Source: Ideonella sp. A 288 (GTDB lineage Bacteria > Pseudomonadota > Gammaproteobacteria > Burkholderiales > Burkholderiaceae_C). Taken from it: DNA of 64,000 bases. Shown here piece by piece: positions 2,365 through 64,000 of the stretch (the stretch's first letter is position 1; each line of letters opens with the position of its first letter). The stretch is taken from positions 880 to 64,879 of the forward strand of contig NZ_MWLO01000155.1 in NCBI RefSeq assembly GCF_002198735.1. Direction: 5' to 3'. A program made the translations under genes and the position numbers. Below the pieces are notes generated by a model. The model had not been told where the DNA came from. It made no database searches and was given only the letters and a program-made list of their open reading frames with translations.

Positions 2365-3513
2365 ATGGCCGACGCACAAGACCGCAACCTACCCGCCTCG
2401 GAACGCAAGCTCCGCAAGGCCCGTGAAGACGGGCAGGTGGCGCGCTCGCGCGACCTGGCGCACCTGGGGGTCGTCGGCGGTGGCGGTGCGGTGCTGCTGG
2501 CGGCCATGCCCTGGCTGCTGGACGCGACGCAGGACATCCTTCGCGCCGGCCTGCGCTTCGACGCGCACGACCTGCAGGGCGCCGAGGGCATGTTGCAGCG
2601 CCTGGGCGACCTGGTGATGGCCTTCCTGGGCATCGTCGTGCCGATGGGTGCGGTGGTCACGCTTCTGGCCGTGGGCGCGGGCGTGCTGTCGGGCGGCTGG
2701 AACTTCACCTTCAAGCCGCTGGCACCGAAGTTCAGCCACCTCGACCCGCTGGCCGGGCTGGGCCGCATGGTCTCGCGCGACCACCTGGGCAACCTCGTCA
2801 AGTCCTGCGTGCTGGCGCTGGTGGTCGGTGCCATCGGCGCCACCTACCTGGCCTCGCACCTGCAGGACTTCCACGACGCGCTGACCATGTCGCTGCCGGT
2901 GGCCCTGGCCCACACCGGGCAGGCGCTGATCGGCGGCCTGGGCCTGATGGCGCTGGCCCTGGGCGTGTCCGCGATGATCGACGTGCCGCTGCAGCGCGCC
3001 ATGCACGCCCGCCGCCTGAAGATGAGCGTGCAGGAAGTCAAGCAGGAACAGAAGGATTCCGAGGGCAACGTCGAGGTCAAGGCCAAGCTGCGCGCCCGCA
3101 TGCGCGAGATGGCGCAGCGCCGCATGATGGCCGCGGTGCCCGGCGCCGACCTGGTGGTGATGAACCCCACCCACTACGCCGTGGCGCTGAAGTACGAGGA
3201 CGGCAAGATGGCCGCGCCGAAGGTGGTGGCCAAGGGTGCCGACCTGATCGCGCTGCGCATCCGCGACATCGCCCGCGAGGCCAAGGTGCCAGTGCTGCAG
3301 GCACCCGCGCTGGCCCGTGCGCTGTACGCCCACACCGAACTCGACCAGGAGGTGCCGGCCCGGCTGTTTGCCGCCGTGGCGCAGGTGCTGGCCTACGTGT
3401 ACCAGCTGCGCGCGGCGCTGGACGGCCGCGGCGCCTGGCCGAACGCGCTGCCCGAGCTCGACGTGCCGCCGGACATGGACCCGCACCTGAAGCATGAAGG
3501 GGCCGGCGCATGA
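2365..3513 (+). CDS. flhB: Flagellar export apparatus switch protein FlhB
   Basis: Inner-membrane component of the flagellar type III export gate that switches substrate from rod/hook to filament class. The 382-residue protein has the family length. It starts with a basic segment (SERKLRKAREDGQVARS), followed by four hydrophobic segments over about residues 35-215 and a basic cytoplasmic domain. The autocleavage motif NPTH is at about residue 267, followed by the typical YAVALKY segment. The ATG at 2365 was chosen over an upstream in-frame codon because it follows GGGGAGGG and matches the usual FlhB N-terminus. Its last codons overlap flhA by ATGA, so translation is probably coupled. It heads the flhB-flhA-flhF-flhG-fliA operon. 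Confidence 0.95.
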   Translation: MADAQDRNLPASERKLRKAREDGQVARSRDLAHLGVVGGGGAVLLAAMPWLLDATQDILRAGLRFDAHDLQGAEGMLQRLGDLVMAFLGIVVPMGAVVTLLAVGAGVLSGGWNFTFKPLAPKFSHLDPLAGLGRMVSRDHLGNLVKSCVLALVVGAIGATYLASHLQDFHDALTMSLPVALAHTGQALIGGLGLMALALGVSAMIDVPLQRAMHARRLKMSVQEVKQEQKDSEGNVEVKAKLRARMREMAQRRMMAAVPGADLVVMNPTHYAVALKYEDGKMAAPKVVAKGADLIALRIRDIAREAKVPVLQAPALARALYAHTELDQEVPARLFAAVAQVLAYVYQLRAALDGRGAWPNALPELDVPPDMDPHLKHEGAGA

Positions 3514-5606
3514 ACCCACGCCTGATCCTGGCGCAACTGCAGGCCATGGTGGGCCCGCGGGCCGGCGTGCTGCGCGCGCTGATGGCGCCGCTGTTCATCG
3601 TCATGGTGCTGGGCATGATGGTGCTGCCACTGCCGGCGCTGGCGCTGGACGTGCTGTTCACCTTCAACATCACGCTGGCGCTGATGGTCATGCTGGTGGC
3701 CGCGCACATGCTGCGGCCGCTGGACTTCGCCGCCTTCCCGACCGTGATCCTGGTCACCACGCTGCTGCGCCTGTCGCTCAACGTGGCCTCCACCCGCGTG
3801 GTGCTGCTAGAAGGCCACAACGGCACCGGCGCCGCGGGCAAGGTGATCGAGAGCTTCGGCCACTTCCTGATCGGCGGCAACTTCGCCGTCGGCCTGATCG
3901 TCTTCGCCATCCTGGTGGTCATCAACTTCATCGTCGTCACCAAGGGCGCCGAGCGCATCGCCGAGGTCGGCGCGCGCTTCACCCTGGATGCGATGCCCGG
4001 CAAGCAGATGGCCATCGACGCCGACCTCAACGCCGGCCTGATCGACGAGAAGGAGGCCAAGCGCCGCCGCCTCGAAGTGGGCGAGGAGGCCGAGTTCTTC
4101 GGCGCCATGGACGGTGCCAGCAAGTTCGTCCGCGGCGACGCGGTGGCCGGCATCCTGATCCTGTTCATCAACATCATCGGCGGCCTGATCATCGGCATGG
4201 TCGACCACAACCTGTCGGTGGCGGCGGCGGCCAAGTCGTACATCCTGCTGGCCGTCGGCGACGCGCTGGTGGCGCAGATCCCGGCGCTGCTGGTGTCGGT
4301 GGCCGCGGCGATGGTGGTGTCGCGCGTCGGCAAGGAATCCGACATCGGCAGCCAGATCCGCACGCAGGTCTTCGGCAGCCCCAAGGCGCTGGCCATCACC
4401 GCCGGCATCATCGGCGCGCTGGGCACCATCCCGGGCATGCCGCATGTCATCTTCCTGCTCATCGCCGGCGCGGTGGCCTGGCTGGCCTGGTGGCTGGGGC
4501 GGCGCGCCCAGCGCGCGGCGGAAAAGCCCATGCCCTCTGCCGAGGCGCAGCAACCGGCGGCCAATGCCGAGGCCAGCTGGGACGACCTGCAGCCGGTCGA
4601 CACGCTGGGCCTGGAGGTGGGCTACCGGCTCATCGCGCTGGTCGATGCCTCGCGCTCGGGCGACCTGCTCGGCCGCATCAAGGGCGTGCGCAAGAAGTTC
4701 GCGCAGGAGGTGGGCTTCCTGCCGCCGCCGGTGCACATCCGCGACAACCTCGAGCTGAAGCCCAGCGTCTACCGCGTGATGCTGCGCGGCGCGGTGGTGG
4801 GCGAGGGCGAGGCCTTCCCGGGCATGTTCCTGGCCATCAACCCCGGCGGCGCGACGGTGAAGCTGCCCGGCGCCGAGACCGTCGACCCGGCCTTCGGACT
4901 GCCCGCCACGTGGATCGAAGAGCGCCAGCGGGAGCTGGCCCAAATGAATGGATTTACGGTGGTTGATTGCTCGACCGTCGTGGCCACCCACCTTTCACAC
5001 TTGATGCAGGTGAATGCGGCCAGGTTGCTGGGCCGGGTGGAGACCCAGCAACTCGTCGAGCACGTCACCAAACTCGCCCCCAAGCTCATCGAAGACGTGA
5101 TCCCCAAAATGGTCGGCATCTCCACCATCCAGAAGGTCCTCCAGCTGCTGCTGGAAGAAGGGGTGCACATCCGCGACATGCGCTCGATCGTCGAGTGCGT
5201 CGCCGAGTTCGCCGCCACGGTGACCGACCCCGGCGAACTGGCCAAGCGCATCCGCATCCACCTGGCCCCGGTGATCGTGCAGCAGATCTACGGCCCGCAG
5301 CGCGAACTGGACGTCATTGCGCTCGAACCCGAACTCGAGCGCCTCGTCACCCAGGCCCTGACCTCGCCACACGGCGCGGCGCTGGACCCCGGTGTGGCCG
5401 ACACGCTCACCCGCGAGGCGGCCAACACCGCCCGCCGCCAGGAAGACCTGGGCCAGCCGGCCTGCCTGCTGGTGCCGGACCTGATCCGCGCGCCGATGGC
5501 CCGCCTGCTGCGCCGCGCCGCCCCGCGCCTGAAGGTGCTGGGCCACAGCGAGATCCCTGAGACCCACTCGATCCGCATCGGATCGATCATCGGAAGTACG
5601 ACATGA
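3510..5606 (+). CDS. flhA: Flagellar export gate protein FlhA
   Basis: Large export-gate subunit that forms a nonameric ring under the basal body and couples proton flow to protein export. The 698 residues are the family length. The N-terminal half carries about eight membrane segments and the conserved FHIPEP-family loop (TLLRLSLNVASTR, then DAMPGKQMAIDADL and GAMDGASKFVRGDA). The C-terminal half is the cytoplasmic substrate/chaperone-docking domain, including the HLSHLMQVNAARLLGR and LAPKLIEDVIPK segments. The start overlaps the end of flhB, and the stop overlaps the flhF start as ATGA. Nothing unusual was seen. Confidence 0.96.
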   Translation: MNPRLILAQLQAMVGPRAGVLRALMAPLFIVMVLGMMVLPLPALALDVLFTFNITLALMVMLVAAHMLRPLDFAAFPTVILVTTLLRLSLNVASTRVVLLEGHNGTGAAGKVIESFGHFLIGGNFAVGLIVFAILVVINFIVVTKGAERIAEVGARFTLDAMPGKQMAIDADLNAGLIDEKEAKRRRLEVGEEAEFFGAMDGASKFVRGDAVAGILILFINIIGGLIIGMVDHNLSVAAAAKSYILLAVGDALVAQIPALLVSVAAAMVVSRVGKESDIGSQIRTQVFGSPKALAITAGIIGALGTIPGMPHVIFLLIAGAVAWLAWWLGRRAQRAAEKPMPSAEAQQPAANAEASWDDLQPVDTLGLEVGYRLIALVDASRSGDLLGRIKGVRKKFAQEVGFLPPPVHIRDNLELKPSVYRVMLRGAVVGEGEAFPGMFLAINPGGATVKLPGAETVDPAFGLPATWIEERQRELAQMNGFTVVDCSTVVATHLSHLMQVNAARLLGRVETQQLVEHVTKLAPKLIEDVIPKMVGISTIQKVLQLLLEEGVHIRDMRSIVECVAEFAATVTDPGELAKRIRIHLAPVIVQQIYGPQRELDVIALEPELERLVTQALTSPHGAALDPGVADTLTREAANTARRQEDLGQPACLLVPDLIRAPMARLLRRAAPRLKVLGHSEIPETHSIRIGSIIGSTT

Positions 5607-54833: not shown

Positions 54834-54849
54834 TGGCGCGACGATTGCT
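54834..54849 (+). promoter_or_regulatory. Candidate sigma-54 promoter of the five-haem cytochrome gene
   Basis: TGGCGCG, 4 bases, TTGCT, against the consensus TGGCACG-N4-TTGCW: 11 of 12 positions match, and GG-N10-GC spacing is exact. It lies 33 bases before the start codon at 54883. Confidence 0.75.
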
Positions 54850-54882
54850 TTCCCTGCTGCACCTGCAGGAGGAGTACCGACA

Positions 54883-55824
54883 ATGAAATTGACCCAGATC
54901 AAGCCTTGGAGTCAAGCGGCGGTTCGAGGGGCACTGGTTGCCTTGATGTTCGGTTCGGTCATGACCGTCAGCGCGGACGTTGATCTGCCCACCAAGTTCG
55001 ACAACGCGCGGAGCATCTCGAACACCCGTCACAACCTGACCCAGCGGCAGGCCGCAGGTGGTCCGGTCAGCACGACGATGGACCGCTTCCGCAACGACTA
55101 CGGCGAAGTCTGCGTGTACTGCCACACGCCGCACGGCTCGAACGCCAACGTCGTGCTGCCGCTTTGGAATCGCACGATCAAGGCGACCACCTACAACACC
55201 TACGACCAGCTCGGCACGTCGACCATCACGCAGCAAGTGTCCCAGCCCGGGCCCAACTCGCTGTCGTGCCTGTCCTGCCACGATGGTCAGGTGGCGGTGG
55301 ATTCCGTCATCAACATGCCCGGTGCCGGCGGCTATCTGGCGGCGCAGGCCACGGTGCAGAACAACACCTTCCTGAACGCTTGGACCAACCCCAGCGGCAT
55401 CGACGCCACGGTGCACGTGGGTCTCGATCCTGTGGTGGCCAATGGTTGCCTGTCCTGCCATTCCGCGGGCGCTGGCATCAACGGAACGGGCGCCACCGAC
55501 TTCGCCGCCTTCGTCATCGGCACCGACCTGCGCAACGACCACCCGGTCGGTGTGCGCTTCCCCACCCCCGGGCCGGGCGTCGACTTCAACACGCCAGGCG
55601 CCACGCGGCCGGGCCTGCGCTGGTTCGACAACAACGGGAACAACTTCCCCGATCCGCGCGAGGTTCGCCTCTATGACAGCGGCGAAGGCTTCGAGGTGGA
55701 ATGCGCGTCCTGCCATGACCCGCACGGCGTGCCGTCGGCAGGGGTGGGCAGTTCATTCAACCCGTCGTTCCTGCGTGTGTCCAATGCAGGCAGCGCGGTC
55801 TGCCTGACCTGTCACACGAAGTAA
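54883..55824 (+). CDS. Secreted five-haem cytochrome c, OmcE-like
   Basis: A 313-residue protein with an N-terminal signal (VRGALVALMFGSVMTVSA). It has five CXXCH sites: CVYCHTPHG (about 77), CLSCHDG, CLSCHSAG, CASCHDPHG and CLTCH near the end. The order HNLT...EVCVYCHTPHG...PLWNRTI...SCLSCHDG...NDHPVGV...CASCHDPHG...NAGSAVCLTCHTK is that of the doubled-CXXCH family that includes the wire-forming Geobacter OmcE. The extra third haem distinguishes it from the four-haem paralogue at 61228. AGGAGGAG precedes the ATG. A 12-bp hairpin lies just past the stop codon. Confidence 0.9.
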   Translation: MKLTQIKPWSQAAVRGALVALMFGSVMTVSADVDLPTKFDNARSISNTRHNLTQRQAAGGPVSTTMDRFRNDYGEVCVYCHTPHGSNANVVLPLWNRTIKATTYNTYDQLGTSTITQQVSQPGPNSLSCLSCHDGQVAVDSVINMPGAGGYLAAQATVQNNTFLNAWTNPSGIDATVHVGLDPVVANGCLSCHSAGAGINGTGATDFAAFVIGTDLRNDHPVGVRFPTPGPGVDFNTPGATRPGLRWFDNNGNNFPDPREVRLYDSGEGFEVECASCHDPHGVPSAGVGSSFNPSFLRVSNAGSAVCLTCHTK

Positions 55825-55827
55825 TTG

Positions 55828-55855
55828 CCACCGTTCCCGATTCCGGGAACGGTGG
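55828..55855. promoter_or_regulatory. 12-bp palindrome, candidate enhancer site or transcript-end hairpin
   Basis: CCACCGTTCCCG, loop ATTC, CGGGAACGGTGG forms a perfect 12-bp stem, 4 bases after the cytochrome stop. Its core TTCCCG-N4-CGGGAA recurs at 61080-61095. It is centred 77 bp upstream of the -24 element of the next sigma-54 promoter. No T-run follows, which argues against a simple terminator. Confidence 0.55.
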
Positions 55856-55916
55856 ATCGCGGTTCCCCCTACAGAGAATTTCTGGGCGCGGCGACACCCT
55901 GAGTGTGGGAAATTTC

Positions 55917-55934
55917 AAGGCATGCACCTTGCTC
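55917..55934 (+). promoter_or_regulatory. Candidate sigma-54 promoter of the small cytochrome gene
   Basis: AGGCATG, 4 bases, TTGCT. The -12 box is perfect, the -24 box matches 5 of 7 and the GG-N10-GC spacing is exact. It is 54 bases before the start codon at 55988. Confidence 0.6.
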
Positions 55935-55987
55935 AAGGGTCGGGTCAATCCCTAGTTTGACCCCAACCCCAACCAAGGAGTGCTCCC

Positions 55988-56290
55988 ATGAAGTCGATTT
56001 CTGTTGTTGCCGCGGTCGCGGCAGTGCTGCTCAGTCCGGTGGCTCAGGCCGCCGACGGCAAGGCTGTTTACGAGGCCACCTGCGTTGCTTGCCATGCCAG
56101 CGGAGTGGCCAATGCGCCCAAGCTGGGTGACAAGGCGGCCTGGGCGCCCCGCGTGGCCACCGGCAAGGATGCGCTGGTCAAGTCGGTGCTCACCGGCAAG
56201 GGCGCCATGCCCCCGAAGGCCGGCAACGCCAACCTGAAGGACGACGACATCAAGGCCGCCGTCGACTACATGCTCGCCAGCGTCAAGTGA
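55988..56290 (+). CDS. Periplasmic monohaem cytochrome c (c5/c555-like)
   Basis: A 100-residue precursor: signal MKSISVVAAVAAVLLSPVAQA, then ADGKAVYEATCVACHASGV with the haem site CVACH at about residue 33. The distal Met lies in GKGAMPPKAGNAN. It is the small class I soluble carrier and could shuttle electrons between the inner membrane and the outer-membrane haem proteins. AAGGAG precedes the start. Confidence 0.93.
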   Translation: MKSISVVAAVAAVLLSPVAQAADGKAVYEATCVACHASGVANAPKLGDKAAWAPRVATGKDALVKSVLTGKGAMPPKAGNANLKDDDIKAAVDYMLASVK

Positions 56291-56350
56291 CGCTTTGGCC
56301 GCAGACCGTCCGCGCCTGGCGCGACGGGCTGCGGCGCACTGCCCCGCCGC

Positions 56351-57487
56351 TCATCGTGTCGGGGCAGTGGTCCTGGGTCGCTTGCGGTCTGATTCCGCCT
56401 GTTCGACCATGCGCTGGCCTTCGGATTCTCCGACGGGCCGCAGCACCTCCACCTTGTTGAAGAACTGATCGACGATGTAGACCCGTCCGGTCTCGTCGAC
56501 AGCCACGCCATGCGGCAGGCCGTAGTGGCCGGGCAGGTCGCGGCGGCTGCTGCGGCCCAGCGCGATCAGCAGTTCGCCGTCCGGCGAGAACACCTGGACA
56601 TTGCCGAACGATGCATCGCTCACGTACACCTGGCCCTGCGGGTCGCAGGCGATGCCCCGCGGTCTGGCGAACTGGCCGAGGCCGGTGCCCACCTGTCCGA
56701 ACGCGCGGATGAATCGGCCGTCGCGGTCGAAGGCCTGCACCCTGAAGTTGCCGGCATCCAGCACCCACAAGCGGTTCTGGCCGTCCACGGCGCCCTGCAC
56801 CGGGATGTTGAACTGGCCGTTCTGCTTGCCACGGGTGCCGATCTCCTGCAGGCGCTTGCCGGTCGCGTCGTAGGCGATGACCCGGTGACGGTCGCCCTCG
56901 ACATCGCCGCGGTCGATCACGTACACGCGCTCGCCCGAGGGCTCCACGGCGACGCCGGTCGGGCGCTCCAGGTCTTCGGGCGCGCCGATGGCCCGCTGGA
57001 ACAGGCCAAGGCTGTCGTAGACCATCACCTTGCGCAGGGTGGCGTCGGCCACATAGACCTGCCGATTGCCGTCGACAGCCACCGAGATCGGTTTCTGCAG
57101 CGTGCCGGGCGTGCGAAGCCCCATGGCGAAAACCTTTCGACGCGGCACGTCGAACACAATGATGCGCCGTTGCACGCTGTCGGCCACATAGATGCGGCCA
57201 GCCCGCGCGGCCACGGCGATGGGCTTCTCGAAGGCCGCCTCGCGTGGCACACGCTCGCCTGCCAGCATGCGCACCGTGCGCGAGCGCTCATCGTTCTCGA
57301 ACAGGTCGCCCACCGTGCGCAGGTCGGTCTCCCAGGCGTAACGCGGACGCTCGGGCGGGCGCGGCCAGAGGCGGTCACCCGTGTCGTCGACGGGGGGCTC
57401 GGGCGCTGGGGGGGCCGCGCAGCCGGCAGCGGCCAGAGTCACTGCCAGCGCGGCGTGGCGCCGAGTGAGGCCCATGGGGTTTGCCAT
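56351..57487 (-). CDS. NHL-repeat six-bladed beta-propeller lipoprotein
   Basis: A 378-residue predicted lipoprotein with a signal ending LAAAGCAAP (lipobox AAGC). NHL-type repeats include RIYVADSVQRRIIVFD, QVYVADATLRKVMVYDS, RVYVIDRGDVEGDRHRVIAY, RLWVLDAGNFRVQAFDRDG and QVYVSDASFGNVQVFSPDG, followed by RVYIVDQFFNKVEVLR. The conserved V-D-x-x-N-x-R-V turns are clear. Its paralogue lies at 59943. Propellers of this type accompany multihaem cytochromes in other genomes, perhaps as scaffolds. It is the last gene of a three-gene minus operon, 5 bases after the four-haem gene. Confidence 0.9.
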   Translation of the reverse strand: MANPMGLTRRHAALAVTLAAAGCAAPPAPEPPVDDTGDRLWPRPPERPRYAWETDLRTVGDLFENDERSRTVRMLAGERVPREAAFEKPIAVAARAGRIYVADSVQRRIIVFDVPRRKVFAMGLRTPGTLQKPISVAVDGNRQVYVADATLRKVMVYDSLGLFQRAIGAPEDLERPTGVAVEPSGERVYVIDRGDVEGDRHRVIAYDATGKRLQEIGTRGKQNGQFNIPVQGAVDGQNRLWVLDAGNFRVQAFDRDGRFIRAFGQVGTGLGQFARPRGIACDPQGQVYVSDASFGNVQVFSPDGELLIALGRSSRRDLPGHYGLPHGVAVDETGRVYIVDQFFNKVEVLRPVGESEGQRMVEQAESDRKRPRTTAPTR

Positions 57488-57492
57488 CGCAG

Positions 57493-58686
57493 TCACGCCC
57501 CCTGGATCGGATGGAAGACGCGGTGGATGTAGGCCACCAGGGCGTCGATGTCGCGGGCACTCAGCACGTGCTTCCAGCCAGGCATGGAGGTGCCGTCGAG
57601 GCCCTCCTGGATCACGCGCACGAGTCGCTCGCGGGTCATCGTCGACATGGCCGCGGGGTCGGTCAGATCGCGTGGATGCGGTTCGAGGAACCGGCCGATC
57701 CAACTCTTGGCCGTGCCGTCGGCGGCGTGGCAGAAGGCGCAGTTCTGTTGATAGAGCGATTCCCCCAGGCGCTCGCGCGCAGTCGCCTTGGCCAGAAGAG
57801 GCGGCGTGTCGTGCACCCGGTAGGTGTTGTCGGCGCGCACGGCGGACGCCGCCCGGCTGCCTTCGAAAGCCCCGGCGGGCGTGTTGCGCACCGGCGGATG
57901 GCCGGCGGGTGGCGGCGTGGTGGGGCGCTTGCCGCTGCCATCGGCATGGTCGTGGCAACTGGTGCAGTAGGCATCGCGTGGATAGCTCATCGCCCGCGTT
58001 TCCCAGACGGCGCCGGGCTGCTCGACCCGCCCGTGGTCGTGGCACGTCACGCAGGCGGTGAGGAACAGGCGCTTGCCACGCTGGTGCGCCTCATCGAGTT
58101 GCTCCCATGGCGTGTCGAGCGCAACCTCTCCACGTGCGAACGGGAAAGCCTCACGATGACGGTCGTGGTCGGGCCAGCCGTTCTCGGGGGTGTGGTAGCG
58201 CGTGTTGGGGGCCCGCGATTCGATGAACTCTCGACGCAGAAAGGCCGCGACGGCACGCACTTCGTCGGATCGCAGGATGCCATCGAAGCCCTTCATGGCC
58301 GTTCCGGGTTTGCCGTGGCTGATCACCTGCACCATGGCGTCCATCGACAGGGCGTCGGGCGCCGTCCGCGTGAAATCGCGGGGCGGCGGCTGCAGGTAGG
58401 TGGCGGCCAGCGTGCGCGCGTCGCCCGAATAGCCGTGGCAGAAGTAGCAACGGAAATTCCAGATCTTGCGGCCGAGTTCATGCTGCGCAAGGTCAGCAGG
58501 CGCCATCACCGCGACCGCGGCGCTGGCGGAACTGGCGGCCACGGCACTGGCGGTCGCTTTGGCTGGAGCACTGGCGCTTGACGCAGCCAGCGGCCCTCTG
58601 GCATCGTCCACCGGGCCAGCCGGTTGGCAGCCCGCCAGGGCCAGCAGCGCGTACGCCGCCAGCCCTGCCCACTGCGCGAGGTTCAT
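57493..58686 (-). CDS. Four-haem c-type cytochrome lipoprotein
   Basis: A 397-residue protein with the signal LAAYALLALAGC (lipobox LAGC). Four CXXCH sites: CYFCH (about 90), CVTCH, CTSCH and CAFCH (about 330). The N- and C-terminal modules are class I-like with Met ligands in TAMKGF and TSMPGW and a shared LQPPPRDFT or LEPHPRDLT motif; the middle pair (CVTCHDHG, CTSCHDHADG) is a separate dihaem part. A low-complexity Ala/Ser linker follows the lipid Cys. The start overlaps the preceding gene's stop (ATGA). It is probably anchored to a membrane facing the periplasm. Confidence 0.9.
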   Translation of the reverse strand: MNLAQWAGLAAYALLALAGCQPAGPVDDARGPLAASSASAPAKATASAVAASSASAAVAVMAPADLAQHELGRKIWNFRCYFCHGYSGDARTLAATYLQPPPRDFTRTAPDALSMDAMVQVISHGKPGTAMKGFDGILRSDEVRAVAAFLRREFIESRAPNTRYHTPENGWPDHDRHREAFPFARGEVALDTPWEQLDEAHQRGKRLFLTACVTCHDHGRVEQPGAVWETRAMSYPRDAYCTSCHDHADGSGKRPTTPPPAGHPPVRNTPAGAFEGSRAASAVRADNTYRVHDTPPLLAKATARERLGESLYQQNCAFCHAADGTAKSWIGRFLEPHPRDLTDPAAMSTMTRERLVRVIQEGLDGTSMPGWKHVLSARDIDALVAYIHRVFHPIQGA

Positions 58687-59798
58687 GGGTTCTTGCGCGT
58701 CGCCACCCGCGCCGTTCCGGCCGGCTGCACGAAGGTTTGGAACACGTACTCCGAGACGTTGGCCATTTCCTGTGGTTCGAGCACCTTGCTCCACGCGGGC
58801 ATTTCGGTACCCAGTTTGCCGGCGAAGACCGCGGCATAGATCGCCGGCCGGTTGAACATCGCCCGACTGTCGGCCGAAATGAGGATCCGCGGCTTCGGGT
58901 TGATGAAGTAGGCGCGTGGTCCCTTGCCATCGCCCTTCACGCCATGGCAGGTGGCGCAGTTGGCGTCATAGAAGCGCCGGCCTGCGGCCGCATCGCCCAC
59001 CAGGCCGGATGGCAAGGGCAGGCTCATGTCCACCTTGACCGGACGTGCCGGTGCGGTCATCGGTGCCGCCGCGACCGGCGGGGCTGCGCCGGCGGTGCTG
59101 CCGTGGGCCTGCGTGCCCGAAATGCCGACGTCGCTGTCCACGCGCATGAAGGCCAGACGGATGTAGTCGACCACGGCTTCGATTTCGGGGGCCTTGAGCT
59201 GCGTGGCAAAGCCAGTCATCGCCGTGCCGGGGCGGCCCGCGGCCACCGAGGCGATCATCCGGTCGCGCGTGAGTTCGGCCTGAGCCTGCGGCGTGGAGAA
59301 GTCTCGGGGCGCGGGGCGCAGGTTCGAACTGGCCCAGACCGAGCCGGTGCCGCGATCGCCATGGCAGACGGAGCACGTGCGGGCGTAGATCTGGCGCCCC
59401 CGACTGGCATCGGCCTGGCTGCTGGCCTTCATGAAGCGATCGCGGACGTAGTCGACGACCGCTTCGATCTGCTTGTCGTCGAGTTGCGAGCGCCAGCCCA
59501 CCATCGCGGTGCCGGGAACGCCGCCCTTGACGGCGGCGATCATCCGGTCGCGGGTGAGTTCGGACAACGCCTGTGCGGTGGTGAAGTCGCGCGGCGGCGG
59601 GTTCAGGCTGCCGCGCGCGCGGCTCTGGCCGTCGCCCTTGTCACCATGGCAAACGGAGCAATAGTTGTGATAGACCGCAGACGGCGGTGAATCCTTGCCC
59701 GACCCAGGGGTCGCCGGTGCGGCCCAGGCGCCGACAGCCAGCAACAGCCCGCTGAACAGGCAGGCCAGGGTGTGTCCCCATCGATCAAAACCCAGCAT
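58683..59798 (-). CDS. Three-domain trihaem cytochrome c
   Basis: A 371-residue exported protein with a signal (LACLFSGLLLAVGAWA). It has three tandem class I domains, each with one CXXCH: CSVCHGDKGDG, CSVCHGDRGTG and CATCHGVKGDG. Met ligands follow in TAMVGW, TAMTGF and TEMPAW. The first two share LNPPPRDFT or LRPAPRDFS plus ELTRDRMI and are clearly duplicates. It is the first gene of the minus operon and is preceded by a strong sigma-54 site. Its products could relay electrons to the outer-membrane cytochromes. Confidence 0.9.
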   Translation of the reverse strand: MLGFDRWGHTLACLFSGLLLAVGAWAAPATPGSGKDSPPSAVYHNYCSVCHGDKGDGQSRARGSLNPPPRDFTTAQALSELTRDRMIAAVKGGVPGTAMVGWRSQLDDKQIEAVVDYVRDRFMKASSQADASRGRQIYARTCSVCHGDRGTGSVWASSNLRPAPRDFSTPQAQAELTRDRMIASVAAGRPGTAMTGFATQLKAPEIEAVVDYIRLAFMRVDSDVGISGTQAHGSTAGAAPPVAAAPMTAPARPVKVDMSLPLPSGLVGDAAAGRRFYDANCATCHGVKGDGKGPRAYFINPKPRILISADSRAMFNRPAIYAAVFAGKLGTEMPAWSKVLEPQEMANVSEYVFQTFVQPAGTARVATRKNP

Positions 59799-59831
59799 CG
59801 TTTGTCCCGAAGATGTACTGGGTCGTTCGAG

Positions 59832-59847
59832 TGCAGGTTCCGTGCCA
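59832..59847 (-). promoter_or_regulatory. Candidate sigma-54 promoter of the minus-strand cytochrome operon
   Basis: On the minus strand: TGGCACG, 4 bases, CTGCA. All 7 bases of the -24 box match, 4 of 5 of the -12 box match and GG-N10-GC spacing is exact. It ends 33 bases before the start codon at 59798. Confidence 0.8.
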
Positions 59848-59875
59848 TCGGAGTGCAGCGCAGTGGCGAGCGCGA

Positions 59876-59891
59876 TGGCATGCCTCTTGCG
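59876..59891 (+). promoter_or_regulatory. Candidate sigma-54 promoter of the second NHL gene
   Basis: TGGCATG, 4 bases, TTGCG. The -24 box matches 6 of 7, the -12 box 4 of 5, with exact GG-N10-GC spacing. It is 51 bases before the start at 59943. It lies back to back with the minus-strand site at 59832, 28 bases away, so one activator could serve both. Confidence 0.7.
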
Positions 59892-59942
59892 TTTTACCGC
59901 GCTGTCGCCGCGTACCTCCTTGACAGTGCGGCGTGGAGGACA

Positions 59943-61034
59943 ATGCTGATCGAACCCACTCTCCCGCGTCGGCATCTGCTGCTGGCGCCATTGGCCCTGG
60001 GCCTGCTGTTCCAGGGATGTGCCGAGGCGCCTCGGCAGGCCAAGCCCATCGAGCCACCGGCCTTCCCGCCTCCTCCCGAGGCTCCGCGCTTCATTTTCGA
60101 GCGAAGTCTCTACAGCAGCGCCGACGTCATGCCCGACGACAAGGACGGGGCCTTTCGGCGCCTTGTCACTGGCGAGGTGCGCACCGGGGAAGGCTTGGCC
60201 AAACCCTACGGCGTGGCCGTCCGGCAGGGCAAGCTGTATGTCGGTGATACCGTCAATCGGCACGTCGTCATGTTCGATCTGGCCGGCAGTCGATTCAAGC
60301 GCATCGGCGTCGACGAGCCCGGCGGCCTGCGGATGCCCTTCGGCATCGACATCGACGACGAGGGTCGCGTCTACGTCGTCGATGGCACGGCCAAGCGCAT
60401 CCAGGTCTATGACGCCGAGGGCGTGTACATCAAGACCCTGGCCCAGGATCTGAAGTGGAGTCGGCCCGCCGGCATCGCCGTCGACACCGTGCGCAAGCGC
60501 CTGTACATCACCGATGCCGGTGGGGTCGGCACCGACGATCACCTCGTGCGCGCGCTCGACCTCGAGACCGGAAAGATGCTGTTCGACATCGGCCGGCGCG
60601 GCGACGGGCCGGGCCAGTTCAATCTGCCGCGTGACGCGGTCGTGGCCAATGGCGGGCAACTCTACGTGGTCGATGGCGGCAACTTCCGCGTCCAGGTGTT
60701 CGATGCCGATGGCAAGTTCGTCAAGACCTTCGGTGCGGTCGGTCGGCAGAGCGGCCAGTTCTCGCGTCCCAAGGAGATCGCTGCGGACAAGCAGGGCAAC
60801 CTGTACGTGGTCGATACGGCCTTCGGCAATTTCCAGATCTTCGACGCCGAAGGTCGACTGTTGCTCGACGTGGGCGTGCGTGGCGCGAGCGACGGTCCCG
60901 CGCGCTTCATGCTGCCTTCGGGCATTGCGGTGGATGTCGACGGGCGTGCCTACATGGTCGATCAATTCTTTCGCAAGGTCGACGTCTTCCGGCCCGCGAC
61001 ACTGCCCGCAGGCAGCCCGTACGGCGCGCGCTGA
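59943..61034 (+). CDS. NHL-repeat six-bladed beta-propeller lipoprotein (second copy)
   Basis: A 363-residue lipoprotein: signal LLLAPLALGLLFQGC with lipobox FQGC. It has NHL repeats like those of its paralogue at 56351: KLYVGDTVNRHVVMFDLAG, RVYVVDGTAKRIQVYD, RLYITDAGGVGTDDHLVRA, QLYVVDGGNFRVQVFDADG and NLYVVDTAFGNFQIFDAEG, ending AYMVDQFFRKVDVFRP. The two proteins share order and ending, so they are diverged duplicates. A perfect GGAGGA precedes the start at 59943. Confidence 0.9.
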   Translation: MLIEPTLPRRHLLLAPLALGLLFQGCAEAPRQAKPIEPPAFPPPPEAPRFIFERSLYSSADVMPDDKDGAFRRLVTGEVRTGEGLAKPYGVAVRQGKLYVGDTVNRHVVMFDLAGSRFKRIGVDEPGGLRMPFGIDIDDEGRVYVVDGTAKRIQVYDAEGVYIKTLAQDLKWSRPAGIAVDTVRKRLYITDAGGVGTDDHLVRALDLETGKMLFDIGRRGDGPGQFNLPRDAVVANGGQLYVVDGGNFRVQVFDADGKFVKTFGAVGRQSGQFSRPKEIAADKQGNLYVVDTAFGNFQIFDAEGRLLLDVGVRGASDGPARFMLPSGIAVDVDGRAYMVDQFFRKVDVFRPATLPAGSPYGAR

Positions 61035-61078
61035 TTCCCGATTTGTGATCTCTCGAATGGGAACATTGAAAAGTCGGA

Positions 61079-61096
61079 CTTCCCGCTTTCGGGAAG
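61079..61096. promoter_or_regulatory. Palindrome upstream of the four-haem OmcE-like gene
   Basis: CTTCCCG, loop CTTT, CGGGAAG is a perfect 7-bp inverted repeat. The core TTCCCG-N4-CGGGAA (61080-61095) is the same as at 55834-55849. It is centred about 81 bp upstream of the -24 element of the next sigma-54 promoter. A second, looser TTCCC...GGGAA pair lies at 61035-61063. Confidence 0.55.
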
Positions 61097-61167
61097 GGTG
61101 GGGCGCAAAGTTTGAGGTAGATCAATCTTCACGCCCTGCCGGATGCCATTCAGCCCGTTCAGCTCCA

Positions 61168-61183
61168 TGGCACGCAACCTGCA
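61168..61183 (+). promoter_or_regulatory. Candidate sigma-54 promoter of the four-haem OmcE-like gene
   Basis: TGGCACG, 4 bases, CTGCA, nearly identical to the minus-strand site at 59832. The -24 box matches 7 of 7, the -12 box 4 of 5, and GG-N10-GC is exact. It is 45 bases before the start at 61228. Confidence 0.8.
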
Positions 61184-61227
61184 GAACAGACATCGCGTCT
61201 TCGCAATTCACCCAAGGAGAGAGCGAC

Positions 61228-62097
61228 ATGGGAAAGTGGAAATCGTGGAGTCTGGGCGGGAGCGGACGCTCCCGGGCTGCGGCAGTCGCCGTCGGCCTGC
61301 TGATGACGGTGGGGGGCACCTTGGTGTCCATGCCGGCTGAAGCGCAGATCACAAACACCAAGCACAACCTCGGCACCACGCCGGGCGGCACTGGTGTCAA
61401 CAAGTTCAGCGGCACGGCCGAAATCTGTGTCTTCTGCCACACGCCGCACGGTGCTGACACCAGCGCTGCCGTGCCTCTGTGGAACCGCACGCTGCCGGCC
61501 CCGGCATCGTTCACCACCTACGACAGCCTCGGCACCTCGACGCTGGACGGCAAGGTGGCGCCGGTTGGTTCGGTGTCCATCGCCTGCCTGTCCTGCCACG
61601 ACGGCGTCACGTCGATGAGCGCGGTCATCAACGCCCCGGGCTCCGGCACGACGGGCGATGCCGCCTGGCAGGCCGGCACCTGGACCGGTGCCAATCAGGT
61701 CGCGGGCAAGATCGCCCCCGGACTGATCACCAACATCGGCACCGACCTGAAGAACGATCACCCGATCGGCATTCAGTACGGCGGCGGTGGCCTCAAGGTG
61801 AGCGCGCCCTCCGGTGCCACCACTGACCCCGACTTCAAGTCGGCCACCAGCCAGGTGATCGGCTCCAATCGCGTGTGGTGGGTCGACACCGAAGCGGCGC
61901 CGAATGGCACGCGTCAGAAGACCGACATGGTGCTGTACACCCGCGCCGCCGGTGCTGGCAGTGGCTACACGGGTCAAACCGAGGCCGAGCCGTTCGTCGA
62001 GTGCGCCAGCTGCCACGATCCGCACACCGCCAACGCCACGTTCCTGCGCATCTCCAATGCGGGTAGCGCGGTCTGCCTGGCCTGCCACGTCAAGTAA
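61228..62097 (+). CDS. Secreted four-haem cytochrome c, OmcE-like
   Basis: A 289-residue precursor with a signal ending SMPAEA, cleaved before QITNTKHNLGT (residue 40). Four CXXCH sites: CVFCHTPHGAD (about 67-71), CLSCHDG, CASCHDPH and CLACH at the very end. The motifs PLWNRTL, TLDGKV, NDHPIGIQ and FLRISNAGSAVCL match the family that contains OmcE, and the small size with four haems fits an OmcE-type protomer. Polymerisation is inferred by family only. AAGGAGAGA precedes the start. The PpiC gene follows after 38 bases. Confidence 0.9.
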   Translation: MGKWKSWSLGGSGRSRAAAVAVGLLMTVGGTLVSMPAEAQITNTKHNLGTTPGGTGVNKFSGTAEICVFCHTPHGADTSAAVPLWNRTLPAPASFTTYDSLGTSTLDGKVAPVGSVSIACLSCHDGVTSMSAVINAPGSGTTGDAAWQAGTWTGANQVAGKIAPGLITNIGTDLKNDHPIGIQYGGGGLKVSAPSGATTDPDFKSATSQVIGSNRVWWVDTEAAPNGTRQKTDMVLYTRAAGAGSGYTGQTEAEPFVECASCHDPHTANATFLRISNAGSAVCLACHVK

Positions 62098-62135
62098 ACC
62101 AACCCGTACGCCTCGGCACTCATCAGTTGTTCGCC

Positions 62136-63215
62136 ATGACCCATTCGAATCGCCCTACCGTTCACACCGCGTCCCCGCGCAGCGAATCGTCGCCGCGCCC
62201 CTGGCGTTGGTCGTTGATCGGCGTGGCGTTGACGATGGGCTGGTGGATGCTGGTGGTGGCCGAGGCGCGCGCGGCCGACAAGGACGGTGCCTCTGCTGTC
62301 TTTGCCCGCGTCGGCGACGTCGTGATTTCGCAGCAGGCCTATGACCAGGCCTATGCGATCGCGGCGCGCAACAAGTTCTACCATGGCAAGCCGCCCGAGC
62401 AAGAGGTGGCGCGCCTGCAGCGCGAGGTGGGTGATTCGCTCGTCAATGAAACCTTGCTGATGAAAGAGGCGCGTCGGCGCAAGCTGCAGCCCGACCACGC
62501 CGACATCGCCAAACAACTCGATGTGTACGAGGCGCGATACAAGAGCAGCCCCATGTGGCAATCGAACAAGGCCACGGTGCTGCCGCCGCTGAAGAAGAAA
62601 CTCGAGGACACCAGCATCCTCGACCAATTGCAGGCCTCGGTTCGAAAGGTGGCCGAGCCCACCGAGCGCCAGATCGAGGCCTATTACGACAGCCACAAAG
62701 AAAAGTTCACCGAGCCCGAGCAGGTGAAGATCTCGGTGATCCTGCTGAAGGTTGATCCGTCTTCTCCGCAGGCCAAGTGGAATGGTGCCTTGGAAGAAGG
62801 CACCGCCATTTCCAAGCGCTTGCGCGGTGGTGCCGATTTTGCGGCCCTCGCCCATCTGCATTCCGGCGACGATTCCGCCAGCAAGGGTGGTGCGATGGGC
62901 TACACCCACCGCGGCATGCTGCCCGAGCCTGCGCAGCAGGCCATCGACAAGCTTCAGCCGGGTCAGGTGTCCGACGCGGTGGCTTTGCTCGAAGGTGTGG
63001 GTGTGTTCCGGCTGGAAGATCGCAAGTTGCCGAAGCTGAATCCGCTGTCGGCCGTCCGGCAGCGGGCGAAGGATCTCTTGCAGCGCGACATGGCCGATCA
63101 GGCGTGGACCGATTTCCTGGCGCGCCTGCGCCGCGAAACGCCCACTCGCATCGATGAAACCCGCTATCTGCCGCTGGCCACCCCAGTGGCCAATGCCCGG
63201 CCAGCCAGTAAGTAA
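62136..63215 (+). CDS. Periplasmic PpiC/SurA-type peptidyl-prolyl isomerase
   Basis: A 359-residue exported protein with the signal WSLIGVALTMGWWMLVVAEARA. An N-terminal SurA-like helical part (VARLQREVGDSLVNETLLM) is followed by a parvulin domain (about 185-290): VKISVILLKVDPSSPQ, ADFAALAHLHSGDDSASKGG and MGYTHRGMLPEPAQQAI. It is placed with the haem proteins and a beta-barrel gene, so it may fold or chaperone those secreted proteins. The ATG at 62136 was chosen over a TTG at 62127. It probably shares the transcript starting near 61195. Confidence 0.9.
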   Translation: MTHSNRPTVHTASPRSESSPRPWRWSLIGVALTMGWWMLVVAEARAADKDGASAVFARVGDVVISQQAYDQAYAIAARNKFYHGKPPEQEVARLQREVGDSLVNETLLMKEARRRKLQPDHADIAKQLDVYEARYKSSPMWQSNKATVLPPLKKKLEDTSILDQLQASVRKVAEPTERQIEAYYDSHKEKFTEPEQVKISVILLKVDPSSPQAKWNGALEEGTAISKRLRGGADFAALAHLHSGDDSASKGGAMGYTHRGMLPEPAQQAIDKLQPGQVSDAVALLEGVGVFRLEDRKLPKLNPLSAVRQRAKDLLQRDMADQAWTDFLARLRRETPTRIDETRYLPLATPVANARPASK

Positions 63216-63227
63216 AGGGCATGGGCG

Positions 63228-64000
63228 GTGCGACGATCGCCTGCTTGGGTTCTGCTGTGCTCGGTCGCTTCCACTGCGTTCGCTCAGGTCGAGAGCCCTC
63301 AGCCCCCCGCGGCGCCGGTCGCGCCGCCACCGGCGCCTGTGTCGTCGTCGGGCGCAGGCGCCATTTCGACCACCGCAGCGCCTGTCGAGCCCGTGGGTGG
63401 CGGCGTGCGGTGGCAATTGCCGCCCTTGCTGTGGACCGGGTCGCTGGCATTCGACATCCGTCGGGACCAACTCGACACAGAAGGCGTTCGGCAACAGCGG
63501 CTGGTGACGGCCACGCTCGGAACGGCAACCTACCTGTATGCGCCTTGGTTGGCGATCGTCAACGGCACGGTCGGCCTGACCCGTGGCACTGTCCAGGGCG
63601 ATGCCCCCGACGATTCATCGGGCGGCAGCCGATTTGTCACCGGCAAGCTCCAGTTGTCCCTGCTGCCGCGCAGCCGGTTCCCGTCGGAGTTGCGCTACGA
63701 GGTGTCCGACAGCCGCATCGACAGTTCACTCGGCGGCGGCGTGGACTATCGGTCGCGCAACGTCTCGGTGCTGCAGCGCTATCGCCCGGTCAATGGCGAG
63801 TTCTCTGTGTCGGCAAGCTACGAACGGCGATCTCAGGACAGCGCCGACTTCGGCCAGGACACTCAAGACTCCTTTCTGGCGGACTTCGCCAGCCACTGGA
63901 AGCGGCATCAGCTCACGGCCAGCCTCACCCGCAGCGCCAATCGACGCGGCAGCACGGGAGAGGAAAGCGATTTCACTTCGCTGGTGGCGCGCCACAGCGC
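63228..64000 (+). CDS. Outer-membrane beta-barrel protein, N-terminal part (runs off the right edge)
   Basis: The frame from GTG at 63228 is open to the window end (257 codons). A signal peptide (VRRSPAWVLLCSVASTAFA, then QVE) is followed by a Pro/Ala/Ser-rich linker. Alternating strands come next, such as LAFDIRRDQLDTEG, QRLVTATLGTATYLY, RFVTGKLQLSLLPRSR and GEFSVSASYERRSQDS, typical of a porin. No CXXCH is present. AAAGGG is the ribosome binding site and the gap to the isomerase gene is 12 bases. It is a candidate porin for the electron conduit; the family cannot be named from this part. Confidence 0.75.
   Translation, partial: MRRSPAWVLLCSVASTAFAQVESPQPPAAPVAPPPAPVSSSGAGAISTTAAPVEPVGGGVRWQLPPLLWTGSLAFDIRRDQLDTEGVRQQRLVTATLGTATYLYAPWLAIVNGTVGLTRGTVQGDAPDDSSGGSRFVTGKLQLSLLPRSRFPSELRYEVSDSRIDSSLGGGVDYRSRNVSVLQRYRPVNGEFSVSASYERRSQDSADFGQDTQDSFLADFASHWKRHQLTASLTRSANRRGSTGEESDFTSLVARHS

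Follow-up and report, generated by a model that had tools for sequence, protein, structure and literature searches.

Uet, for undecahaem electron transfer, is the name that Eddie et al. reportedly gave in 2022 to the kind of gene cluster that comes closest to the one described here. In the published account available to us, it comprises an undecahaem cytochrome (UetJ), an extracellular tetrahaem cytochrome (UetA), trihaem cytochromes (UetDEG), a peptidyl-prolyl isomerase (UetB), NHL proteins (UetHI) and a porin (UetC), and its source organisms are Tenderiales and six Gallionella (PMC10734462). The Tenderia genes, as far as excerpted, include three trihaem genes (Tel_16515, 16520 and 16530), a TPR gene (16525) and the undecahaem gene (16545) (PMC5371394); the name uetABCDEFGHIJ appears in an excerpt of PMC12575090, and UetJ is mentioned for mobilis-type Leptothrix in one of PMC13386937. 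The present analysis concerns Ideonella sp. A 288 (genome of 6.98 Mb) and a window of 64,000 nucleotides (nt), positions 880-64879 of contig NZ_MWLO01000155.1. Positions 54834-64000 of the window, hereafter the region, are the left part of a larger Uet-type cluster, which the end of the window splits. The contig was examined further rightwards, to 129 kb in window coordinates; genes beyond the window were called with a coding-score script, and genes E and F (lettered as in the table below) were set by hand.

The original prediction placed in the region a sigma-54-linked betaproteobacterial locus for extracellular electron transfer that combines propeller, isomerase and barrel genes with cytochromes of the OmcE family, and this reading stands. 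The 17 CXXCH haem motifs and all of the genes that it named are present, as judged by motif count, reading frames and domain calls. The window has 18 matches to TGY-N6-TGYCAY (CXXCH), 17 of them inside 55111-62088; when the whole window was shuffled 100 times by dinucleotides, the mean was 5.62 and the maximum 11. The 17 motifs are in frame and are divided 5+1+4+3+4 over five reading frames. Domain searches agree with the haem counts, the two NHL proteins, the PpiC isomerase and the start of the barrel, and there are doubled-CXXCH secreted-protein domain calls for the pentahaem and tetrahaem proteins (A and G). Both NHL proteins had been called lipoproteins; NHL domains are found in both, and the lipobox of the second (F) is poor by eye. 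The conduit had also been thought complete within the region and to match no described operon exactly. Neither claim held up. The genes for the c7 carriers and the undecahaem cytochrome, like those for maturation and regulation, all lie past 64000, and the cluster, going by what has been published, is of the already described Uet kind.

The genes from 61228 to 73944 fit uetABCDEFGHIJ in parts and order, as these are given in the available descriptions, with the order being that implied by the uet letters and the Tel_ tags. The UetA counterpart (G) has four CXXCH and a signal-peptide-like start, and its place is predicted to be extracellular. Beside it are a PpiC isomerase and a barrel porin, like UetB and UetC. 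UetDEG, the three trihaem c7 carriers, have four c7 counterparts here, of which one also contains a fused monohaem domain, and TIGR04257 of NCBIfam scores above its cut-off in all three of the c7 carriers scanned. As with UetHI, two NHL genes stand ahead of the undecahaem gene, the product of which has the 11 CXXCH of UetJ. We consider it very probable that the region forms the left portion of a Uet cluster, that is, of a porin-cytochrome system that exchanges electrons with an outside donor or acceptor. Three points weigh against this assignment. Membership was judged from published descriptions of the Tenderia genes; the place of UetF (the TPR gene Tel_16525 in Tenderia) is taken by two genes without a Pfam match, and a TPR protein sits after ResB instead; and one of the carriers is not a trihaem protein but a fusion with four CXXCH.

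The barrel protein has 633 residues, and its AlphaFold model, made from 43 sequences, has 28 long strands (predicted local distance difference test, pLDDT, 87.5). Foldseek places the model among outer-membrane barrels, with MtrB (6r2q_B) third (E 1.7e-8, template-modelling score, TM, 0.41). No NCBIfam model, that of MtrB/PioB included, matched the barrel at 0.01 or better. The prediction supports a large beta-barrel, not MtrB membership. A conduit of the Mtr/Mto/Pio, PCC3 or OetABI type in place of Uet would have the same general plan of a barrel with multihaem cytochromes, and the OetABI cassettes of Desulfobacterota also come with wire-type cytochromes, according to the passages available (PMC10553843). 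Such a conduit is nevertheless very improbable, because the barrel lacks an NCBIfam match, the MtrB/PioB gene of this genome sits on a different contig from the cluster and the haem numbers of 4, 3 and 11 fit Uet. Membership of MtrCAB/MtoAB/PioAB was rejected on the first two of these grounds, and OetABI identity was set aside on its published description.

The tetrahaem protein, the pentahaem protein and residues 13-226 of the undecahaem protein (E 3.7e-25) match 7tfs in phmmer searches of PDB sequences. We take 7tfs to be the OmcE filament of Geobacter sulfurreducens; its entry in the PDB table reads cytochrome c. A profile of 44 tetrahaem proteins reaches 2.4e-42 and 7.4e-41 (7tfs and 9yuq). 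By sequence, the tetrahaem and pentahaem proteins belong to the OmcE family, as does the undecahaem protein over its first ~220 residues. Exactly eight histidines are invariant in the alignment of all 44 tetrahaem proteins, four of them in CXXCH (71, 124, 263 and 287) and four others (46, 74, 178 and 266), which align with TKH, TPH, NDHP and KVH of 7tfs. OmcE and OmcS have a haem to which the neighbouring subunit supplies a histidine ligand, as reported in the part available of PMC9473688.

Relatives of the cluster were collected by scanning genome contigs once with an alignment of three c7 orthologues, which gave 138 relatives, and the best 80 loci were kept. Among the undecahaem-type open reading frames of these relatives, 59 of 64 have exactly 11 CXXCH; the remaining five (8, 6, 5, 4 and 3 motifs) belong to three loci, L036, L048 and L084. 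All 59 proteins having 11 CXXCH contain CXXCH-TPH with a histidine at most 40 residues ahead; a stricter motif for this histidine fits 48 of the 59, and an NDH-type motif fits 56. We found no paper in the open-licence literature that links UetA or UetJ to OmcE, and the Uet naming paper may do so.

Table. Features of the cluster in window coordinates; positions past 64000 lie beyond the window.
Feature	Position	Strand	Details
Sigma-54-like site	54834..54849	+	TGGCGCGACGATTGCT, 10/11; 33 nt ahead of pentahaem gene
A: secreted pentahaem OmcE-family cytochrome	54883..55824	+	5 CXXCH; phmmer 7tfs 5.6e-18, 9yuq_N 4.3e-19
Weak sigma-54-like site	55918..55933	+	9/11; 54 nt ahead of monohaem gene
B: monohaem class-I cytochrome c	55988..56290	+	PF13442 2e-18
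C: NHL propeller lipoprotein, partner of A	56351..57475	-	PF01436 2.2e-25; start 57475 or 57487
D: four-haem lipoprotein	57493..58686	-	4 CXXCH; lipobox LAGC; PF13442 2.9e-28
E: trihaem class-I cytochrome	58683..59798	-	3 CXXCH; PF13442 1.3e-36
Sigma-54-like site	59832..59847	-	TGGCACGGAACCTGCA, 10/11; 33 nt ahead of E-D-C
Weak sigma-54-like site	59876..59891	+	9/11; 51 nt ahead of F
F: NHL propeller, partner of tetrahaem protein	59943..61034	+	PF01436 2.9e-26
Sigma-54-like site	61168..61183	+	TGGCACGCAACCTGCA, 10/11; 44 nt ahead of tetrahaem gene
G: UetA-type tetrahaem OmcE-family cytochrome	61228..62097	+	4 CXXCH; phmmer 7tfs 1.8e-28, 9yuq_N 3.3e-23; eight invariant His
H: UetB-type PpiC peptidyl-prolyl isomerase	62136..63215	+	PF00639 1.2e-12
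I: UetC-type outer-membrane barrel	63228..64000, to 65129 on contig	+	cut by window end
c7 trihaem	65143 or 65227 to 65652		
Four-CXXCH c7-monohaem fusion carrier	65663-66595		
Two genes	66607-67560, 67557-68465		no Pfam match
Two more trihaem c7 genes	68465-69034, 69031-69408		
Two NHL proteins	69402-70391, 70397-71461		ahead of undecahaem gene
Undecahaem cytochrome, UetJ-type	71461-73944		827 residues; 11 CXXCH
ResB, cytochrome c assembly protein, TPR protein, CcmE, CcmF, thioredoxin-like protein, CcmH			in this order after undecahaem gene
Histidine kinase	83070-84491		
Response regulator with sigma-54 interaction domain	84597-86018		PF00158 6.9e-70

Two observations on the right part of the cluster deserve mention. 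At 73941-80073, ResB and a cytochrome c assembly protein, which are system II-like, are directly ahead of CcmE, CcmF, a thioredoxin-like protein and CcmH, which are system I-like, and thus parts of two cytochrome maturation systems adjoin. Further on (86941-88005) is a regulator-propeller protein; its counterpart in another genome of the genus (G012) is 71% identical and is near the cluster there too.

The pairing of OmcE-type proteins with NHL propellers is a consistent feature of the loci. An NHL open reading frame lies within 1.5 kb of 163 of the 169 OmcE-type open reading frames or pieces in the 80 loci, and two of the six unpaired ones are near contig ends. The partners differ by type, since the pentahaem gene is paired with a C-type NHL gene (5/5), the tetrahaem gene with an F-type (92/98) and the undecahaem gene with a Q-type (66/66). 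This pattern would suggest that the propellers serve the OmcE-type proteins in export, assembly or anchoring. In 27 loci, the F-type gene is also shared by a further tetrahaem OmcE-family gene nearby, a distant one (30-34% identity); these loci (L034-L080, about position 3000-4300) are mainly Rhodocyclales-like records.

Candidate sigma-54 sites were scored out of 11 against TGGCAC-N5-TTGCW, with GG and GC fixed. The six sites of the window with at most one mismatch are not above chance (shuffle mean 2.78; 10 of 100 shuffles reach six). Four of them fall in the region, where the three listed in the table at 10/11 are 33-44 nt ahead of genes and the fourth (62880, minus strand) is inside the PpiC gene. 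The contig as examined has 48 sites of at least 9/11 in 129,120 bases, and a score of 9/11 is weak singly; six sites in the 129 kb score 10/11, and four of these stand 33-50 nt ahead of A, E, G and CcmE. For the relatives, the 200 bases upstream of gene starts were scored, with shuffles that dealt out two-base blocks as a control. Sites of at least 9/11 are present ahead of the tetrahaem gene in 63 of 92 cases, the monohaem gene in 31 of 45, E in 19 of 40, the first c7 gene in 28 of 80 (only 2 at 10), F in 15 of 62 and the pentahaem gene in 4 of 5; the controls for these six gave 0.06-1.7 (shuffles) and 0-2 (reversed sequence). The counts for other gene types were C 1/6, D 0/15, PpiC 7/69 (reversed 3), barrel 1/47, K 1/53, M 3/92, N 5/70, O 0/66, Q 3/65, R 3/62 and ResB 2/47. 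Sigma-54 control of the cluster is likely, because the sites recur in relatives and the cluster has a sigma-54 regulator, and not because of the number of sites in the window.

The pentahaem gene and its neighboring NHL gene form an accessory module; the pentahaem protein is absent from uetA-J as described in the available text. In an alignment of 13 rows, the fifth CXXCH is inserted ahead of NDHP, and a histidine upstream of it is in the same column in 12 of the 13 rows and four columns earlier in L116. Two of the rows (L115 and L118) come from a tandem pair in a single genome, both truncated where their loci end, and L117 and L081 nearly duplicate each other. The pentahaem proteins form their own clade in the tree (support 100/100). 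They are present in seven of 399 genomes of the host's order and in five of the 80 loci, and the C-type NHL gene adjoins the pentahaem gene in all seven genomes. Six of these seven also carry the c7 marker (one-sided Fisher test, 3.8e-9, or 9.4e-8 without the Ideonella sp. A 288 genome, neither corrected for relatedness). In one genome (G034), the pentahaem gene and the c7-to-ccm part are on different contigs.

Among the best 80 of the 138 loci, PpiC is present in 74, the barrel in 71, the tetrahaem protein in 69, the undecahaem protein in 63, trihaem E in 60, four-haem D in 58 and ResB in 54; the c7 gene is present in 76 by construction, c7 being the query of the scan. Several of the locus contigs are short, and absence from a locus is not equal to absence from the genome. 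Judged by record title, most of these loci come from Betaproteobacteria and some from other Gammaproteobacteria, from Magnetococcales or from a few further groups; among them are Sphaerotilus mobilis DSM 10617 (L087) and Ramlibacter lithotrophicus RBP-1 (L032). One locus labelled Planctomycetota (L090) looks betaproteobacterial, which could be a mis-binned contig or a transfer. Within the host's order, the c7 marker is present in 14 of 399 sampled genomes, that of Ideonella sp. A 288 included. A tetrahaem match was found in three of 40 genomes, again with its own, and in one of 20 other genomes of the genus.

The tree has 61 rows, a subsample made up of a third of the tetrahaem and undecahaem proteins and half of the second tetrahaem copies, plus all six pentahaem rows of those loci. 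The placement of the second copies is unsure, because 12 of their 13 rows fill under half of the columns. The tetrahaem and undecahaem proteins of Ideonella sp. A 288 group with Ramlibacter (100/99 and 100/88), and those of L096 group with Sphaerotilus and Piscinibacter. We infer that L096 is a contig of G012, the sole other genome of the genus with the cluster among those compared. Proteins of the same genus thus group with different genera, which points to horizontal exchange of the cluster.

As to how the system might work, the UetC-type barrel, folded with the help of the PpiC isomerase, would span the outer membrane, and the undecahaem UetJ-type protein would connect it to the outside. 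The first ~220 residues of UetJ, as an OmcE-type four-haem module, would present the same interface as a wire subunit does, and on it the UetA-type tetrahaem protein could build up by stacking into an OmcE-like filament or a short chain, with the pentahaem paralogue as an alternative subunit with one haem more. The c7 and class-I cytochromes would move electrons in the periplasm, the NHL propellers would aid export, assembly or anchoring of the OmcE-type proteins, and sigma-54, together with the nearby kinase/regulator pair, would switch the cluster on. UetJ is proposed as the filament-porin adaptor because its OmcE-type module is fused to seven further haems. We put forward only tentatively that Uet is in this sense a nanowire system, with UetA and pentahaem filament subunits, a UetJ adaptor, NHL proteins for export and assembly and a sigma-54 switch.

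Two further results count against the working proposed here. The AlphaFold model of the tetrahaem protein, made from 44 sequences, was poor (pLDDT 54.6), had no Foldseek match at 0.001 or better and was not used as evidence; and in the second pentahaem copy of G168 (L115) the TPH histidine is replaced by Asn. The OmcE-type proteins of the same Uet conduit might instead act as monomers or short surface complexes, without polymerising. The uninformative model leaves room for this, and the pentahaem insertion and the undecahaem fusion would show that the module has uses other than in a plain filament. On the other side, all 44 tetrahaem proteins without exception keep the N-terminal histidine and the three other histidines outside CXXCH, and the two best matches among solved structures are the OmcE filament 7tfs and the 16-chain entry 9yuq. 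We regard the non-polymerising form as a serious possibility, somewhat short of an even chance. The link of cytochrome wires to the cell across the outer membrane is described as poorly understood in Geobacter, in the part of PMC10553843 available; should a wire subunit and a conduit cytochrome be naturally fused in the undecahaem protein, this would provide a testable model of the wire-porin junction. Because the cluster occurs in named isolates (RBP-1 and DSM 10617), Uet can be tested outside the uncultivated Tenderiales.

Electron uptake is the likelier direction by analogy, because Uet is known, from the descriptions available, in cathode-oxidising Tenderiales and iron oxidisers. In favour of the reverse are the undecahaem cytochrome cited, in an excerpt, from the manganese-reducing Ca. 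Dechloromonas occultata (PMC13264449), and two Dechloromonas loci (L063 and L069) that carry the cluster. On this alternative, the same conduit would mainly discharge electrons, as in metal reduction, in Ideonella sp. A 288, which we consider rather unlikely, in view of the organisms from which Uet was described and of a RuBisCO large subunit in the genome (436 bits, G000:C6:8426-9346). Elsewhere in the genome is a porin of the MtrB/PioB family (437 bits, G000:C163:16067-18145), and so the organism may hold a second conduit and, with RuBisCO, may fix CO2.

Four described systems invite comparison. The OetABI/OmcX/OmcS cassette likewise encodes a porin-cytochrome conduit together with wire-type cytochromes (PMC10553843); going by its description alone, the porin and cytochromes are different ones. 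The OmcE filament (7tfs) is of the same sequence family as the proteins here, and its four CXXCH and four additional histidines have counterparts in corresponding positions; the protein here, a putative wire subunit, is longer, and undecahaem-fused and five-haem forms occur. The Occ cluster of Ca. Dechloromonas occultata is reportedly an undecahaem cytochrome cluster in a betaproteobacterium, probably of the same kind, and presumably Occ is a synonym of Uet. The Uet clusters of Ca. Tenderia/Tenderiales, Gallionella and mobilis-type Leptothrix have in common with this one, as described, the tetrahaem protein, the isomerase, the porin, the c7 carriers, two NHL proteins and the undecahaem protein. 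Relative to those descriptions, the pentahaem-NHL pair and the divergent three- and four-haem genes are additional here, one carrier is fused to a monohaem domain, one c7 gene is extra and maturation and sigma-54 regulator genes are nearby; some of these differences may be in the naming paper. In conclusion, the cluster of Ideonella sp. A 288 is a further member of Uet with an accessory pentahaem module, and its relationship to OmcE, its paired NHL genes and the recurrence of sigma-54 sites are points worth the attention of specialists.

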